Source of the DNA: an uncultured Anaerolineae bacterium | GTDB taxonomy: Bacteria; Chloroflexota; Anaerolineae; J036; Brachytrichaceae | Length of the DNA: 64,000 nucleotides | Assembly (NCBI GenBank): GCA_937959265.1 | Contig: CALGMA010000012.1 | Location: 1 to 64,000, forward strand | Direction of reading: 5' to 3' | Shown here: piece by piece, positions 44,295-63,080 of the stretch | Numbering within the stretch: the first letter of the stretch is position 1 | How the letters are laid out: every line of letters starts with the position of its first letter | The notes under the pieces: model-generated | Seen by the model: the letters and a program-made list of their open reading frames with translations, nothing else | What the model was told of the DNA's origin: nothing | The model's database searches: none | Translations under genes and position numbers: made by a program

Positions 44295-45842
44295 ATGGCC
44301 ATCCTGATCGAACACGTAGACGTCCTCGATCCAACTGCGCCGCGTAGCACCGCTGGCGATCAATCCGTCCTCATCGAAGGCAACCGCATCTCCGAAGTTG
44401 CACCATCGCGCGGCCTCAATCTGGCAGCGATCATGAATCGCGCATCGCCAATCGGCAATCTGGAGGTGATCAACGGCCGCCACCTGCTCGCCATCCCCGG
44501 CTTGATCAGCGCACACACGCACTCGCCGGAGAACTACATGCGCGGCGCCACGGAGCGCATGCCGCTGGAGCCGTGGTTGGTTTGGCTCTACGGCACATGC
44601 GGCGAATACACCGCGCGCGACCATTACCTGTGCGCTGCGATGAGCGCGATCGAGATGCTGCTGAGCGGCGTGACCGGCTCGCTTGACCATCTGTGGCACG
44701 GCGGCCCATGGCAGCGTGAATACCTGGACGCCGTGATGGAAGCCTACCGCGATAGCGGCATCCGGGCGGCCGTGGCGCCGATGTACGACGATCACGACTA
44801 CGTGCTCGATGCCGCCGACGCGCTCGGGCACGACCTACGCGGCAGCGTCTATGGCCTGTCGCACGGCGGCTATCGGCCCGACCGTGACGACTATCGCCGC
44901 GGTGTGCTTCGCGATAACCTTGCCCTGTTCGACGAGTGGATGCGCAACTGGCACCGCTCACACGATGGCCGGTTGCAAACTTTCCTTGGGCCGGCCGCCG
45001 GCCAATTGGTGACCACCGAGTGCTTGCAGTGGTCGCTGGAGCTGGCACGCAAGCACGGCGCCGGCGTACACATGCACTGCGTCGAAACACGCGTGCAAGA
45101 CTACTGCATCCGGCGCGCGCGCGGCAAAACCGTGATTCACTGGTTGTATGACGAAGATCTGCTCGCCCCTGAGGTGACGTTGCCGCATAGCGTCTGGATT
45201 CGCAGCGCGGACGATCTGGACCGGCTGGCCGAGCGGGGCGCGATTCCCGTGCACAATCCGGCAGCCAACCTTAAGCTGGGCAGCGGGCTGATGGCGATGC
45301 GCGAGATGCTCGATCGTGGTATCACCGTGGCGCTGGGCGTGGATGGCGCATGTAGCAGCGACAACCAGAACATGTTCGACGCGATCAAGCTGGCTGCGCT
45401 CATCCACAATCTGAAGCATCACGATCCCAAGACGTGGATTACGGCGCGTGAGGCGTTCGAGGCCGGGACGATCGGCGGGGCGGCGGCGCTATTGCTGGGT
45501 GACCGGCTGGGAAGCTTGCGCTCTGGACAGTTGGCCGACATCGTCCTGCTGGACACGCGCACGGCGACGCTCGCGCCGATGAACGATGCCTACGGCATGC
45601 TCGTGCACTGCGAGACCGGCGCCTCGGTCCGGCACGTCATCGTCAACGGCGAAGTCGTGGTGCGCGATCGCAAGCTGCTGACGTTGGACGCCGGCGCGCT
45701 CATCGCCGAGTTCTTCGAACGCGTGGAAACGCTACCCTTCCGGCATCCCATTGACCTGAAGACGCAAAAAGACGTGGATGACTGCTGGGCGTTCTGGCGC
45801 GAGGTGATGCGGCGGGTGACGACGGGGGAAACATCATCCTAG
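44295..45842 (+). CDS. Amidohydrolase (chlorohydrolase/deaminase type)
   Basis: The 515-aa metal-dependent hydrolase has the TIM-barrel metal site: His74 and His76 in SAHTHSPENYMRG, a later HMHCVE histidine, LPHSVW, and the Asp in ALGVDGACSSDNQNMFD. The NPAANLKLGSGL loop is typical of the TrzN/AtzA/guanine-deaminase group. It likely deaminates or dechlorinates an N-heterocycle; the true substrate is unknown. TATCAT lies about 8 nt upstream. Its 3' end overlaps that of the convergent 5-FCL gene by 9 nt. Confidence 0.9.
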   Translation: MAILIEHVDVLDPTAPRSTAGDQSVLIEGNRISEVAPSRGLNLAAIMNRASPIGNLEVINGRHLLAIPGLISAHTHSPENYMRGATERMPLEPWLVWLYGTCGEYTARDHYLCAAMSAIEMLLSGVTGSLDHLWHGGPWQREYLDAVMEAYRDSGIRAAVAPMYDDHDYVLDAADALGHDLRGSVYGLSHGGYRPDRDDYRRGVLRDNLALFDEWMRNWHRSHDGRLQTFLGPAAGQLVTTECLQWSLELARKHGAGVHMHCVETRVQDYCIRRARGKTVIHWLYDEDLLAPEVTLPHSVWIRSADDLDRLAERGAIPVHNPAANLKLGSGLMAMREMLDRGITVALGVDGACSSDNQNMFDAIKLAALIHNLKHHDPKTWITAREAFEAGTIGGAAALLLGDRLGSLRSGQLADIVLLDTRTATLAPMNDAYGMLVHCETGASVRHVIVNGEVVVRDRKLLTLDAGALIAEFFERVETLPFRHPIDLKTQKDVDDCWAFWREVMRRVTTGETSS

Positions 45843-54683: not shown

Positions 54684-57194
54684 TCATCGCGGTAGCAGGG
54701 TGAAGCTCAAGTTGCCTACCCTGAATTGCAGACGGCTGTCGCTGTCAACCTCGATGGGCTTGCCGGTGTTCAGAATTACGCGCATCGGTTTGAGACCTGA
54801 ACCGGCGTCGAGCGTGCCGTCGAGGACAAGCGCGTACACTTCGCCCGACTCCGCGCGTAACCGTGCTACATTCACCTTGTTGTCCACCAGCTTGCCACGG
54901 CCTAGGCCGATGCTCGGCGCCGATGCGCTTAGCACTAGGTCGCCGGTGGTCAGTCCATTGGGAGTAGCGCTCACATCGGTAGCTTTGAAGGATACGTCGC
55001 CTAGCTCCGGCGCAAACGTCAATGTCACCGAGGCTACGGCGACGCCGCTTGATGATGCGAGCGTCTGGCCCATTTCCAGACTTGCCACGCCGAGGTTGAG
55101 CGTCAATCCAGGCGACTCGCCGGTGATTGAGCCGTCCGGCGAGAGCGTGAAGGCGATCGTGTTGGTCTGACCGGCATTCCCCGGCAAACTGAGCGTGAGT
55201 TGCCCTTCCCCACTGACGCGATACTGTGTTCCGTCGTAGGTAAGATTGGCCCGAGCACCCTCTAGCGCCAGTGCACCGTCGGCTAGCACGATCGCCGGTA
55301 GAGTGAACGTACCATCGTTCACGCTCAGGCCGTTTGCGGTCAATGCCACACCATCCAGCTTGGTCACGCCGTTGCCCCATGCCGGGGCCAGTGCAAACGA
55401 TGCGTGATCTGCGAACAGGCCGGCGTTGTTCAGCGTCACATCCAATAACTCCAGCGAGCCGAATCCGAGATCGAGCGTGAGCCCGTCGAATGTGCCGAGC
55501 ACCTGCGTTCGTCCTTGTGCATCGGGAGCGAGGGTGAACTGGATCTGTTGTTGCTGTTCGTTGCCAGGCAGGTCCACGCGCAACGTGGAAGCGACGTTGA
55601 ACGCATAGTAGTTCTTGCCGTTGATCGGGACGACGCTGAGCACGGCGCGATTGTCCGATAGGACGACCTGGTCGGCGAGCGTAATAGAGGGCAGGTCAAC
55701 AGTCGCGCCGGCAGAGCCGAAGGAGAGTCCATCCTGGCTAATGACCACATCGGTCACCACCGTTGTTGCGCCTCCCAGGCTCTCCGGCAGTTGCAACGCT
55801 GCCGACGATGCTTTCAGGCCGGTGTTGTCAATGCGCGCTGGCCCCAAGGTCAGCATCGCACCGCCCAAGTTGAGTTGCAAGCCGACCACCTCACCGCTCA
55901 GTTGGCCGTTAGGGGCAAGTGATAACACCACGTCGGTTGTCTGCTCGTTGCCGGGCAGGTTCATGATCAGTGTGCCCTCGGCAGCGACCGCATAACCCTC
56001 AGATGCGTTCACCAGAGCTGCAGTCACATCGCTTACGCTCAGGAAGTCCCCGGCCAAGGAGAAGCCGGGTATGAAGAACGTGCCCTCACTGACTGACAAC
56101 CCGCTGCCATCCACGCGCGGATTGTCTACCACGAATACTGCATCACCAGTGACGGTCGGCAGCGTCAGCGTCGCCGTTGGCGCGGACAACCCTTCGTTAC
56201 TGATCGAGACGTTGCCCATTTGGAAGACGCCGCCGGCGACATTGAAGGATAACTGTGGCAACGCGCCGCTTAGTTGTGGCTGACCATCCACTGTGGCAAG
56301 CGCCACTGTAGCGGCGGCCTCGCCGGGCGTTGCGCCTTGAACGATCAGCGACGTCGAAATGTCGAAGCGGTAGTCGCGCATGACTGGGTCCCACTTCAGC
56401 ATTGCGGTGTTGCCGCTAAACCGAATCGCATCGCTGCTACCCAGAGTGATGTCGGGGAAGGCGAATAAGCCGTCCACAGCGCCAAAGGTGATGTCCTGAC
56501 CAACGATGCGCAGTTCGTTGACGGTGACCGAGCTGCCGCCAAATTGCGGCGGCAGTGTGATACTGGCAACCGGCGCGTAGAAGCCGCCGTCGATCAGCCG
56601 CAGCCCATTCGGTGCAGCGATCGTTACCCCCGATACCTGGAAGGCGACCGGTGGAAGCCGTCCAAAGAGCAACCCGCTGACCAGATCGAAGCCCAGCGTC
56701 GAGGTGATCTGCTGGTTGGGGCCGAGTCGCACCAGCGCTCTGCCGTGTGCTGTGCCGGCGGGAATGTTAACTTGGGTGATGGCCGAAGTGATCGGCCGGA
56801 CGCCTCGTAGATGGCGCAGCCGTGACCTGGCGCCGGGCAGCGGCACAACGACGCCGGTCTTCGTATCGGCGCGGAAGCCACCGTCGAACAACGCGATGTT
56901 GCCGGTGATCGTCTCTAACGTGCCGGAGCCAAGCACCGTCGCGCCGTCGAACATCACCATCGCATCGGCGCCGGTCAGGCGGAACATCTGTCCTAGGCGC
57001 AGGTTGCCGACGGCGCGCGTAAAGCCATTTTCGGTCTCGATAAAGCGATCCGCCGTGATGGTGATCGCGCCGACTCGGCGGATTTGCGGCGCAGACGCGA
57101 TCGCGAACACATCCGCACGGGCTGCTGCAGCAGACACCGCGGCATGAGCAGAAATAGCAAACGCCAATGTGACACGCATCAAGATTTTGGGCAC
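54684..57194 (-). CDS. Large exported protein built of about 125-residue beta repeats
   Basis: The 836-aa product has a signal peptide ending near ARA-DV (about residue 26). The rest is composed of about six repeats of 110-130 residues. Each repeat holds a strand block, a phrase like LPGNEQTTDVVLSLAP or LPGNAGQTNTIAFTLSP, a GQLSGEV/GSITGES turn, and a strand such as LQLNLGGAMLTLGPA. No catalytic motif is seen, so a surface or matrix role is likely. I chose GTG 57194 because AGGAGG lies 8 nt upstream; an upstream ATG at 57269 is also in frame. No known family recognised. Confidence 0.75.
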   Translation of the reverse strand: MPKILMRVTLAFAISAHAAVSAAAARADVFAIASAPQIRRVGAITITADRFIETENGFTRAVGNLRLGQMFRLTGADAMVMFDGATVLGSGTLETITGNIALFDGGFRADTKTGVVVPLPGARSRLRHLRGVRPITSAITQVNIPAGTAHGRALVRLGPNQQITSTLGFDLVSGLLFGRLPPVAFQVSGVTIAAPNGLRLIDGGFYAPVASITLPPQFGGSSVTVNELRIVGQDITFGAVDGLFAFPDITLGSSDAIRFSGNTAMLKWDPVMRDYRFDISTSLIVQGATPGEAAATVALATVDGQPQLSGALPQLSFNVAGGVFQMGNVSISNEGLSAPTATLTLPTVTGDAVFVVDNPRVDGSGLSVSEGTFFIPGFSLAGDFLSVSDVTAALVNASEGYAVAAEGTLIMNLPGNEQTTDVVLSLAPNGQLSGEVVGLQLNLGGAMLTLGPARIDNTGLKASSAALQLPESLGGATTVVTDVVISQDGLSFGSAGATVDLPSITLADQVVLSDNRAVLSVVPINGKNYYAFNVASTLRVDLPGNEQQQQIQFTLAPDAQGRTQVLGTFDGLTLDLGFGSLELLDVTLNNAGLFADHASFALAPAWGNGVTKLDGVALTANGLSVNDGTFTLPAIVLADGALALEGARANLTYDGTQYRVSGEGQLTLSLPGNAGQTNTIAFTLSPDGSITGESPGLTLNLGVASLEMGQTLASSSGVAVASVTLTFAPELGDVSFKATDVSATPNGLTTGDLVLSASAPSIGLGRGKLVDNKVNVARLRAESGEVYALVLDGTLDAGSGLKPMRVILNTGKPIEVDSDSRLQFRVGNLSFTLLPR

Positions 57195-57950
57195 GGCATC
57201 AGCCTCCTGGGTGAGTTCGTCTACTGAAGGATCACGCAATGTGTTTCGGGTGTGCGGATGATGAGACAACCTGCATGGACTGAATCTGTAAGCCTACGCC
57301 ATCTTCCTGAATTGAAACACATTTCATTATTGCATATCCGTTTTAAGCATCTGTATAATTTCTGTTGAGCGGTTCGCTTGGGGTAGACGAAGGCATTTTC
57401 GAATTTGGATTGTCAGGGCCGAAAAATAGCCATGTCGAAGAGTGTATCAATGAAGGCAGATATGTCTGCAAGTTTTGGGTATGTTGCAGTTTGGAAATGG
57501 TAACCTCGGCTTCGAACACAAAGGCGCAGATGAAGGCTTTCTGAAAGGTGCCAGGCTTTCCGAAAGCAAAGCTTCAAGGGATGCATGCCTTCCTCTCAAT
57601 ATTGAAAGTGTTTTTGGGCAAGCTTTGGAATCCGAATTTCCAACTATCAAATATTTGAGTTGCAAACAACATGAAAGCTGACCAGCAGACTCAATTATCA
57701 TACGGCATGAATAAGCTGCCCAACACGCGATTCCACTTGACACCGCTCTGCTGCGCTTCGCGGCGCAGGTGAAGCGTATGCCGTTACACTTATATGACTG
57801 GCGCATCTCACCGTTTCCCTGCTTCGCCCGCTGCCTGACCCGGCGGGTTGATCCTCGAATTTGATTGCGGCTCGGCTCTGGCTGGCTGCAATGGTCGGCT
57901 TGTATTCGCGCTGGTCCAATACACTCACATCCAATATTCGTAACTTGATC
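57195..57950. other. 756-bp intergenic region, AT-richer than its surroundings
   Basis: The stretch 57300-57700 is clearly lower in GC than both neighbours and contains TTTTAAGC and TATAATTTC motifs, so it may hold promoters of the repeat protein or a fragment of foreign DNA. It also has a degenerate half copy of the palindrome family (57381-57397). Short frames here (68 and 119 codons) lack ribosome binding sites and recognisable domains, so I do not call them genes. Confidence 0.5.
57381..57397. repeat. Degenerate half copy of the palindrome family
   Basis: GGGTAGACGAAGGCATT matches one arm of the 31-bp palindrome with one mismatch; the second arm is missing. Confidence 0.55.
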
Positions 57951-60311: not shown

Positions 60312-62294
60312 TCATGTCTGCGCAATCTGCACATACTCCTGCCGCAGCACGGCATCGTCACTTACGCCGAAGCGCGCCAGTAGCTTGCCGATCACAGCGG
60401 CTTTGCGCTCGGCGTCACGCTTGCTCCAGGTGCGGCTCTTGATCTCCAGGAAATAGCCGTCGCGCGCCGGATTCACCACGCGGTCTATGTTGATGAAAAG
60501 CTCCTCATCGTCATAGAACACTTCCCAGCGCAGGCGATCCTTCTCGACTTGCACCTCGTGCGTCGGCTTGAAGTACTCGCGGTAGAAGCGCAGGCTACGA
60601 TCCGCCGGCGACATGAAGCGCACTCGGCTGAGCAGGATGGAATGGGGGTATTCGCGTTCGCTCTGGCCGCTCACCAGCGTCAGGCGATAGCGACTGCCGA
60701 CCACGTTGCCGCGCTCATCTATGCGCTCGTCTTCGCGATAGCGCAGGCGTGACGGCTCGTCCTCGAAGAAGAAGTAAGTGTCGTATTGGCGGTAGTGCAC
60801 GTGGCGCACCACGTTGATTTCGCTGCTGTTGATCATCTCGATAATCGGCTGCGGGTCGCCGATGCGGGCTTTTACTTGCACCTCGAACGATTCCTCTTGC
60901 TGCACGCCGCCAATAGCGGCGAGCTTGCGCAATACGTCGCTTTCGCGCGCCATGAGGAATGTGTGGATCTGTTGCGCCAGCCGGTTGGCCTCCGATTCGA
61001 TTGCGCCCTCATCCAGGGTGAGCAGCGCGCGGTCGCGCATCAGCGGCTTGCCGTTCACGAATACATCGCGCACGTCGCTGGCCTTGCTGGAATAGACGAT
61101 CTGCGTGTAGATGGCGTCGCTGCCGGCCGCAATGCTGGAGTACTGCGGCGTGCTGTGCAGCCGGCGCAGCTCCAGCACGATGACGTCGGCGCGCTTGCCG
61201 ACTTCGAGAGAGCCGGTGACGTGGCCGATGTGCAGCGCGTGTGCGCCCATGCGCGTCGCCATCAACATCGCCGTGCGCGCCGGCACGGCGACCGGATCGC
61301 GCGTGCTGCCTTTAGCCAACAGCGCTGCCAGCCGCATCTCCTCGAAGTGGTCGAGGTCGTTGTTGCTGGCCGGACCGTCGGTGCCGATGCCGACGTTGAG
61401 GCCGGTCTTCAACATCTGGGCGACGTTGGCGATGCCGCTGGCCAACTTGAGGTTGGCCGAGGGATTGTGCGCTACCGTTGCGCCGGCGTTGCGCAGCGTG
61501 CGCATCTCGCCGGCGTCTATCGCTACGCAGTGCGCGGCGATCACCTTGGCCTCCAGCACGCCGTTCTTCTTGACCCAGTTCACCACCGGCATGCCGTGTT
61601 CGCGCCGGCTGTCTTCTACCTCCTGGAAGGTTTCGCTGATGTGGATATGCAACGGCACGTCATATTTGATGGCGATCTCGGCGCAGGCGCGCATGAGCGG
61701 GCCGCTGCAGGTATAAGGCGCGTGCGGAGCGATCACCGGCGTGATTAGCGGGTGCCCCTTCCACTTGCGGATGAAAGCTTCGGTGAACTCCAAACTCTCG
61801 TCGGCGCTGGATGCGTCAGGCGTGGGGAACTGCATAATGGTCTGCGAACACAGCGCCCGCAAGCCGGCCTCGGCGATAGTCTGCGCGATGGTCTCCTCGA
61901 AGTAATACATGTCATTCACGCAGGTCACCCCGCTGCGGATCATCTCGGCGCAGGCCAGGCGCGCGCCCAGCGCCACGAACTCCGGCGAGACGAACTTGCG
62001 TTCGACCGGCAGCATGTAGCCATACAGCCACACATCCAGCCGCAGGTCGTCGGCCAGGCCGCGCAGCAACGTCATCGGTGTGTGGGTGTGGCAGTTGACC
62101 AGGCCAGGCATGATGCAGCAACCTGTGCAGTCAATCACCTCCCCTGCAGTGTAGGTAGCCGTGATTGGGTCGGCATCGCCGACGGCGGCGATCGTATCGC
62201 CGCGAATGGCCACGGCGCCGTTCGGGTATTGATGGAAGGCATCGTCCATAGTGATGACGACGCCGCCGGTGAGCAGAGTGTCGGCTTGCTGCAT
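60312..62294 (-). CDS. Amidohydrolase fused to a C-terminal CYTH domain
   Basis: The product (660 aa from ATG 62294) has an MTA/SAH-deaminase-like amidohydrolase in residues 1-455. Metal ligands: His69/His71 (NCHTHTPM), His216/His218 (LHIHISE), His255 (IAAHCVAID) and Asp306 (GIGTDGPASNND). From about 468 to 655 the sequence looks like a CYTH (CyaB-thiamine triphosphatase) domain: FEVQVKARI (471-475 as an ExQxK variant of ExExK), RQYDTYFFF, RLRYRED and FLEIKSRTW. CYTH domains act on triphosphates. I do not know this fusion as a described protein. TATAAC lies 6 nt before the ATG; an in-frame start at 62330 is less likely. Confidence 0.85.
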   Translation of the reverse strand: MQQADTLLTGGVVITMDDAFHQYPNGAVAIRGDTIAAVGDADPITATYTAGEVIDCTGCCIMPGLVNCHTHTPMTLLRGLADDLRLDVWLYGYMLPVERKFVSPEFVALGARLACAEMIRSGVTCVNDMYYFEETIAQTIAEAGLRALCSQTIMQFPTPDASSADESLEFTEAFIRKWKGHPLITPVIAPHAPYTCSGPLMRACAEIAIKYDVPLHIHISETFQEVEDSRREHGMPVVNWVKKNGVLEAKVIAAHCVAIDAGEMRTLRNAGATVAHNPSANLKLASGIANVAQMLKTGLNVGIGTDGPASNNDLDHFEEMRLAALLAKGSTRDPVAVPARTAMLMATRMGAHALHIGHVTGSLEVGKRADVIVLELRRLHSTPQYSSIAAGSDAIYTQIVYSSKASDVRDVFVNGKPLMRDRALLTLDEGAIESEANRLAQQIHTFLMARESDVLRKLAAIGGVQQEESFEVQVKARIGDPQPIIEMINSSEINVVRHVHYRQYDTYFFFEDEPSRLRYREDERIDERGNVVGSRYRLTLVSGQSEREYPHSILLSRVRFMSPADRSLRFYREYFKPTHEVQVEKDRLRWEVFYDDEELFINIDRVVNPARDGYFLEIKSRTWSKRDAERKAAVIGKLLARFGVSDDAVLRQEYVQIAQT

Positions 62295-62357: not shown

Positions 62358-63080
62358 ATGAGCGCATCGTCAAACCACGTTCCACCACTACAAACAGCGC
62401 TGTTGCAATCGAATACACGGTCTGGGGAGCGCTACAGCCTGCGCATGCCCGTCGTGCGCATCGGTCGCGGCGCACTCGACCCACATGACATCCAACTGCC
62501 CCCCGATGACATACATGCCTCGCGCGAGCACGCCCGCCTGATGTTCGAGGATGGCGCGTGGTTTATAGAGGATCACAGCCGTAACGGCACGATTGTGAAC
62601 GGCCGGCTGCTGCAGAAAGCAAAAGTCAAGTTGTCGAGCGGCGACCGCATCCGGATAGGCGATTCATTCGATGTTGTGTTCCGCTATCTCAGTGACACTA
62701 CACAGGCGGAGGATTTCGCTCATGTCGCGCCGCGCGCTGCACTGTCAGCCCAACCGGCCGAGTCGCCCGCTACGCAGGTCGGCCTGTGGATCAGCCCCAG
62801 CGCGGCGGTGTGGCGCGATGGTGAGCGGCTGCCCGTCTTCCTCTCGCGCACCGAGTACCGCTTGCTCAAATATCTCATGCAACACGCCAACGACGTGTGC
62901 GAATACGACACGGTGATTCAGGCCGTATGGGGCAGCCGGCGCGACAAAGATAGCCTGCATGAGTTGATCTATCGTGTGCGCCGCAAGATCGAGCCGAATC
63001 CATCGCAGCCACGTTACCTGGTCATCCGCAGCGGCATCGGCGTGGTTTTCTTCCCGCAAGGCGTGAGCACAGACGAATAG
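62358..63080 (+). CDS. FHA-domain protein with OmpR-type winged-helix DNA-binding domain
   Basis: The 240-aa protein joins an N-terminal FHA domain (about 24-112: VVRIGRG, SREHARLM, DHSRNGTIVNG, KLSSGDRIRIG), which binds phosphothreonine, to a C-terminal winged helix (about 150-236: LSRTEYRLLKYLMQH, YDTVIQAVWG, LHELIYRVRRKIEP). It is likely a transcription factor controlled by a Ser/Thr kinase rather than by a response-regulator receiver. The order is the reverse of EmbR (DNA-binding first, FHA last). No kinase gene is adjacent. It diverges from the amidohydrolase-CYTH gene. Confidence 0.9.
   Translation: MSASSNHVPPLQTALLQSNTRSGERYSLRMPVVRIGRGALDPHDIQLPPDDIHASREHARLMFEDGAWFIEDHSRNGTIVNGRLLQKAKVKLSSGDRIRIGDSFDVVFRYLSDTTQAEDFAHVAPRAALSAQPAESPATQVGLWISPSAAVWRDGERLPVFLSRTEYRLLKYLMQHANDVCEYDTVIQAVWGSRRDKDSLHELIYRVRRKIEPNPSQPRYLVIRSGIGVVFFPQGVSTDE

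Follow-up and report, generated by a model that had tools for sequence, protein, structure and literature searches.

Introduction

CYTH/TTM proteins are found in all domains of life, and their physiological function is described as largely elusive (PMC8233210, in part). In the inorganic triphosphatase SaTTM, E7 and E135 bind the Mg of site 1, E5, E7 and E137 the two Ca ions, and R56, R58, K69, K110 and R112 the phosphate chain (PMC8233210 and PMC4641920, both in part). The acidic patch is not universal: in Vtc4p the four positions of AtTTM3 Glu2, Glu4, Glu90 and Glu171 are all basic (PMC4641920, in part), and the tunnel domains of Vtc2/3 are inactive (PMC9938405, in part). Among the nucleoside deaminases of the amidohydrolase type, DadD converts SAH to S-inosylhomocysteine, and Thermotoga maritima has an MTA/SAH deaminase (PMC10978960, in part).

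Our study concerns a gene from an uncultured Anaerolineae bacterium in which an amidohydrolase and a tunnel domain of this kind are joined. The fusion has in common with the inorganic triphosphatase TTMs (SaTTM, YgiF, AtTTM3) the eight-strand tunnel, RxR, KxR and DxY, the first Glu of ExE, and the first Glu and the Lys of ExExK. It differs from them in having ExQxK for ExExK, ExK for ExE and no strand-4 Lys, and in that its tunnel sits C-terminal to an amidohydrolase. Partial loss of the acidic patch, a basic tunnel and a retained metal-1 Glu are features of Vtc4p and Vtc2/3 that recur here. The Vtc proteins have other domains. On alignment the fusion tunnel appears partly Vtc4-like, since Vtc4p is basic at four acidic-patch positions; Q and K occupy the Glu4 and Glu171 positions of the fusion, whereas the Glu2 position is still Glu. 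Plant TTM1/TTM2, as their partly consulted source presents them, also combine a nucleotide-type enzyme domain with a TTM that is without canonical ExExK and ExE, but their partner is of kinase type and they keep W/YxRxR; a plant-type TTM structure, 7z67, is the 12th Foldseek match of the fusion tunnel model. The MTA/SAH and 5'-deoxyadenosine deaminases (DadD, the T. maritima enzyme; 4f0r, 4gbd; PRK09045) share with the fusion the amidohydrolase fold and all metal ligands, whereas they are unfused proteins of about 450 aa, compared to 660 aa, and differ from fused members in loop 80–92.

TTM fusions and degenerate TTMs (plant TTM1/2, Vtc2/3) are known, whereas an amidohydrolase partner with a fixed ExQxK/ExK was not found described. 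The first-pass annotation knew of no described protein with this layout, and we likewise found no account of an amidohydrolase–CYTH protein in the literature searched, which leaves most subscription-journal papers outside its scope. One passage that lists known CYTH partners does not name an amidohydrolase, and the main text of that source is without the terms amidohydrolase, deaminase and Chloroflex. For members above the Pfam cutoff, the combination may already be present in domain databases.

The fusion gene and its distribution

The window, that is, the whole stretch of 64 000 nucleotides analysed, carries on its minus strand an uninterrupted 660-aa frame (60315–62294) whose translation contains both domains (Table 1). 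The ATG lies at 62294, the last sense codon ends at 60315 and the stop occupies 60312–60314. The single frame joining an amidohydrolase to a CYTH-like domain, which had been proposed from the letters with no strand named, is therefore present. Conservation of the linker averages 56 %, compared to 70 % and 63 % for the two domains.

Table 1. Positions in the window of the fusion gene and its parts
Feature	Position	Strand	Evidence
Fusion gene, 660 aa and stop	60312..62294	-	Frame; relatives with the same architecture
Amidohydrolase (nucleoside deaminase) domain, residues ~2–445	60960..62291	-	Pfam, NCBIfam, invariant ligands, structural matches
Amidohydrolase metal/catalytic residues H69, H71, H218, E221, H255, D306	inside 60960..62291	-	Alignment
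Two-helix linker region, residues 429–466; overlaps the end of the amidohydrolase match	60897..61010	-	Model and alignment
Linker invariant residues F446, R450, E451, K457	60897..61010	-	89 aligned rows
CYTH/TTM-like tunnel domain, residues 467–660; eight strands and C-terminal helices	60315..60896	-	Profiles, hhalign, model
Strand 1 signature E471-x-Q473-x-K475 (canonical ExExK)	60870..60884	-	Alignment
Strand 8 signature E617-x-K619 (canonical ExE)	60438..60446	-	Alignment

A survey of architectures across Chloroflexota, suggested by the first-pass annotation, found the C-terminal domain, and with it the fusion, in 243 of the 396 class genomes queried with the last 200 aa and in 62 of 301 genomes of the phylum (profile search), where those outside the class fell under five family labels. 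A scan of one genome per species, restricted to close relatives, yielded 73 loci. Loci with the fusion came from records whose titles name Chloroflexota groups or an uncultured bacterium, and the deaminase part only was seen in records titled Bdellovibrio/Bdellovibrionales, Deltaproteobacteria, Proteobacteria, an archaeon and, in one case, simply 'bacterium'. When 251 genomes of the phylum were searched with the deaminase part, 50 of the 51 listed matches at an identity of at least 50 % sat in frames of 658–824 aa; the remaining one (G521) has a 415-aa frame, with the C-terminal part at the end of a different contig. Listed matches at 43 % identity or below lay in frames of 440–726 aa, mostly shorter than 510 aa. 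Two of the deaminase-like frames, G539:C128:39191–40411 (726 aa) and G565:C45:83263–84564 (634 aa), at 37–39 % identity, are unusually long and may be other fusions or just extended frames.

No standalone C-terminal domain was seen among the matches listed in the class search, one short piece (G172:C248) being left aside. Most short C-terminal frames among the matches listed lie at contig ends by their coordinates, and four of them (G376, G287, G374 and G324) are all cut by the contig edge. Plasmids gave no tblastn match to the fusion. The Thermoflexales assembly SKYG109 (G119) holds two complete copies (L057 and L059). In a tree built from the deaminase domains of 24 fused and 14 unfused proteins, the long unfused branches of which call for caution, the fused domains lie on one side of a branch with support of 99/95 that was recovered in 98 % of bootstrap trees; the fused domains sampled are thus a single group. 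The amidohydrolase–CYTH fusion is a conserved family in Chloroflexota. Because the same fusion recurs across genomes, it is confirmed as real, and chance and assembly artefact are both ruled out.

The amidohydrolase domain and its candidate substrates

Residues 2–445 are an amidohydrolase closest to the MTA/SAH deaminases, as had been suggested from the sequence. Pfam Amidohydro_1 matches residues 61–417 with an E value of 3.4e-67, and the six metal and catalytic residues listed in Table 1 are present and invariant in the alignment of fusion proteins. HxH, H, H and D ligands with a catalytic Glu form the motif of the MTA/SAH/adenosine deaminase branch, and the fusion protein has all of them. 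W89, E98, R146 and H191, which we take, from work on TM0936, to be nucleoside-pocket positions, are also invariant. The top NCBIfam model is PRK09045, at 454.8 bits and under its cutoff of 540, followed by N-ethylammeline chlorohydrolase and 5'-deoxyadenosine deaminase models that are likewise under cutoff; no equivalog cutoff (PRK09045, DadD or others) was reached among the best 25 of 54 matched models. The nearest solved structures are 4f0r, 4f0s, 4dzh, 3lnp, 4dyk and 4gbd, at 35–40 % identity and a TM score by target of 0.95–0.97, and the titles of all except 3lnp name an adenosine deaminase or homologue. Amidohydrolase-type entries alone make up the first 50 matches listed in a fold search with the whole protein.

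Pathway genes were counted in 41 relatives, own genome included. AhcY and MTAP each exceeded their cutoffs in 39/41, MTA/SAH nucleosidase did so in 2/41 (7 at E≤0.001), and the matched stretch of the organism's own MTAP scored 299.7 against the MTAP cutoff of 274.85 and 220.7 against the 223 of the thioinosine model. The fusion as the sole route for MTA or SAH was rejected on these counts; because AhcY and MTAP are so widely present, the fused enzyme is probably not the only route for either compound. Its substrate is no less likely to be 5'-deoxyadenosine or the adenosine that AhcY yields. The canonical adenosine deaminase PF00962 was found in 13/41 relatives and in 0/9 of the own genus, and several genomes have both it and the fusion; these counts are no more than a hint that adenosine may be a substrate of the fusion. 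Unfused amidohydrolase paralogues also occur in the organism's own genome and could share deaminase roles. One such paralogue, at 44460–45713 of the window (plus strand), lies in a 521-aa open frame and is 31–35 % identical to the deaminase part.

A deaminase acting instead on a phosphorylated adenine nucleotide (AMP, cAMP or ATP), with the tunnel holding or delivering the substrate, would suit relatives that already have MTAP and AhcY for MTA and SAH. It would also suit loop 80–92, where fused members have R85, D87 and V88, residues that are mostly different in the 9 unfused relatives compared. However, the nearest solved relatives are nucleoside deaminases, and residues 81–100 of the predicted model are of low confidence. 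The amidohydrolase superfamily includes a cAMP deaminase, a term not found in the literature searched. We regard a nucleotide substrate as very improbable.

Gene context gives a weak signal. Of 84 loci, 75 with at least 1.2 kb of downstream sequence, 6 have MTAP near the fusion. Since two of the six (L194 and L195) were chosen for a known MTAP on the contig, the unbiased figure is 4/82, and the neighbourhood was possibly inherited from few events. A CinA-like gene was seen in 14/66 loci and an RNase J-like gene, named by eye, in 10/66; the 66 loci showed no conserved operon that would tie the fusion to phosphate metabolism. In the window, a protein with FHA and winged-helix parts (by eye; 62358–63080, plus strand) is divergent from the fusion at a distance of 63 bp, and FHA/winged-helix-related neighbours occur in 11/66 loci. 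Also by eye, an 861-aa protein at 54684–57269 (minus strand) shows repeated LPGN..-type units and a signal-like start.

Assignment of the C-terminal domain

Taken alone, the window copy gives little from which to assign its C-terminal part: it has no Pfam CYTH match and no match among PDB sequences, and it scores 18.1 bits (E 0.0019) against the class IV cyclase model TIGR00318, under the cutoff of 57.95. At the level of the family, tested with 30 homologous C-terminal domains picked for spread, PF01928 was matched at E≤0.1 by 15/30 (best 1.1e-7) and TIGR00318 by 22/30 (best 3.4e-7); the VTC family was absent from the Pfam matches of these 30. The profile check of the C-terminal half envisaged by the first-pass annotation thus came out negative for the window copy and positive for half of the 30 domains, whereas that of the N-terminal half was positive outright. 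A PF01928 search of 60 genomes returned four ORFs of 662–696 aa above the Pfam cutoff of 23.2 (33.5, 28, 23.7 and 23.6 bits), three of which (G001, G027, G348) coincide with fusion hits and one (G015) was judged by frame length. Comparison by hhalign of the C-terminal profile with six CYTH proteins gave an E value of 3e-9 and a probability of 96.

The AF2 model of the domain (pLDDT 90.1) has the eight-strand tunnel fold. Its first 22 Foldseek matches among the 50 listed against the PDB are all of CYTH/TTM type, counting two Pyrococcus entries that are not so titled and yet match the CYTH profile. The first match has an E value of 2.2e-8, and TM scores by query are 0.58–0.66 for the first 11. 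The 50 listed matches divide into 32 entries for CYTH, TTM, cyclase or RNA-triphosphatase proteins and 18 for Mediator.

Could the C-terminal part be something other than CYTH, or its fusion artefactual? The silence of Pfam on the window copy would allow this, as would the 30-member profile, which found no CYTH chain among PDB sequences and only AP-2 chains at E 0.7–0.8. The family-level PF01928 and TIGR00318 matches, hhalign and Foldseek nevertheless point to CYTH, and the fusion repeats in many genomes, which leaves this explanation next to no probability. Residues ~467–660 are a divergent CYTH/TTM domain, an assignment that is firm for the family and weak from the window sequence alone, and profile and structure comparison both came out for the CYTH-like domain first suspected.

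Other CYTH proteins were met in passing. At E≤0.01 the own genome has a single PF01928 match (G000:C52:13730–14200, L140), which lies in a 603-aa frame with a CHAD partner guessed by eye. Standalone CYTH proteins of relatives (L112, L116, L117, L121) have NIEIK or NLELK at the place of ExExK and lack its first Glu.

An altered and invariant tunnel signature

The C-terminal domain has 29 invariant positions out of 194 in 89 aligned rows, which represent 59 clusters at 90 % identity and 23 at 70 %. Both hallmarks are changed throughout: strand 1 reads ExQxK at 471–475, as first noticed in the window copy, and strand 8 reads ExK, without the second Glu that triphosphatase TTMs use for metal 2, each in 89/89 rows. 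The invariant residues include E471, Q473 and K475; D505 and Y507; R518 and R520; R557 and R559; K585, R587 and R589; N602 and D604; and E617, K619 and R621. Most of the charged tunnel motifs are therefore retained, as had been claimed (R518/R520, K585/R587, D505xY507, E471 and E617). A further 18 loci, 11 of them outside the class, have the same ExQxK and ExK and keep the invariant residues compared (D505 and Y507 left out), except for R557, which is His in L192; L193 is the same as L010 among the 89, L188 spans only residues 311–656 and others may overlap. Since the 89 rows span 59 clusters and the additional loci agree, the fixed signature points to selection rather than decay.

Within their strands, 18 of the 19 residues that are invariant in the 89 rows share one parity, as expected if they line one tunnel face; strand limits were set by hand from the model, R557 interrupts strand 5 and just one such residue falls in strand 4. 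These residues bear on whether the tunnel is a structural or a nucleic-acid- or protein-binding module without a small ligand, like Mediator Med18/20. Mediator supplies 18 of the 50 listed Foldseek matches, 8 of them titled Med18 (or Med8C/18), and Med8C/18/20 contains a version of CYTH (PMC3702460, reviewer-exchange section). However, most of the residues fixed in the strands carry a charge and they face one side, which a purely structural domain would not need, and CYTH/TTM proteins take the first 22 places. A module without a small ligand is on this evidence distinctly unlikely.

By alignment, SaTTM E5, E7, E135 and E137 correspond to E471, Q473, E617 and K619, and the phosphate binders R56, R58, K69, K110 and R112 to R518, R520, V541, K585 and R587. 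Three positions are thus altered compared to a canonical TTM: Glu to Q473, Glu to K619 and the strand-4 Lys to V/I/M541. These changes suggest that phosphate binding is largely kept, that metal 1 is weakened and that metal 2 is without two of its three Glu. Loss of the strand-4 Lys, which helps to bind triphosphate in SaTTM, weakens the claim of phosphate binding, and the retention of E471, a metal-2 Glu, counts against a non-hydrolytic tunnel. R557/R559 may correspond to the AtTTM3 Glu90 position, an assignment that is uncertain because the alignment shifts there.

Catalysis or sensing

Two enzyme identities were considered and rejected. Class IV cyclases are marked by HFxxxxExExK and a small residue for the first Arg of RxR, and both are missing: positions 465/466 are Q/Q in the window copy and most often Q in the 89 rows, and R518 and R520 are invariant. 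Thiamine triphosphatases are marked by W/YxRxR, which is absent from the window copy, where position 516 is R; R stands there in 73/89 rows, M in 3 and Y in 7, and these 7 have the YxRxR form. The motifs of both groups were taken from PMC8233210, in part. Such domains are at risk of misannotation as adenylate cyclases, and caution is advised because the nearest NCBIfam model is a class IV cyclase.

The first-pass annotation had further offered coupling of deamination to triphosphate or thiamine-triphosphate turnover. Neither form of this idea fared well, as two of the three Glu of the water-activating metal are replaced (Q473 and K619) in 89/89 rows and the thiamine triphosphatase mark is missing. 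Replacement of the two metal-2 Glu argues against hydrolysis, short of proof. Class IV cyclases are active although they, too, are without the second Glu of ExE (PMC8233210, in part), so its loss does not by itself establish inactivity.

A catalytic tunnel of different chemistry, such as a one-metal or lysine-assisted triphosphatase, cyclase or phosphotransferase, would accordingly find precedent in the cyclases and in Vtc4p, a polyphosphate polymerase that is also basic at the usual acidic patch (PMC4641920, in part), and the metal-1 Glu and most phosphate-binding residues are invariant. However, changes to acidic-patch Glu impair catalysis in several TTM enzymes (PMC4641920, in part), the HF motif and WxRxR are both missing, and so is the strand-4 Lys. 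We judge a catalytic tunnel of this kind unlikely, though still to be reckoned with.

We favour, at about an even chance (roughly 0.5), an adenosine-nucleoside deaminase in which a non-hydrolytic tunnel serves as a sensor of ATP, tripolyphosphate or polyphosphate. The N-terminal half would deaminate an adenosine nucleoside (adenosine, 5'-deoxyadenosine, SAH or MTA) to its inosine form in a metal-dependent reaction. The tunnel would bind the phosphate chain through its Arg and Lys residues and at most one metal ion, and would not hydrolyse it, because the water-activating metal-2 site has lost two of its three Glu (Gln473, Lys619). Judged by these residues, the tunnel probably serves to sense or retain a phosphate compound without cleaving it, and may be a built-in sensor that adjusts the deaminase through the two-helix linker. 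The four invariant linker residues favour this reading; the lower average conservation of the linker and the lack of a conserved phosphate-metabolism operon in the loci compared count against it. The exact nucleoside, the ligand, the absence of hydrolysis and the allosteric coupling are the parts of this proposal that we infer.

A more specific version is put forward tentatively, and on the doubtful side. It holds that the protein is a SAM-cycle nucleoside deaminase with an allosteric pseudo-TTM tunnel, in which lysine replaces the catalytic metal and ATP, tripolyphosphate or polyphosphate would set purine and methyl-cycle salvage in Chloroflexota. If true, an allosteric deaminase–pseudo-TTM would be an enzyme class without earlier description. 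A conserved deaminase fusion with a fixed non-standard site links the TTM tunnel to one defined step of metabolism, through which a role of bacterial TTMs as phosphate sensors can be tested directly.
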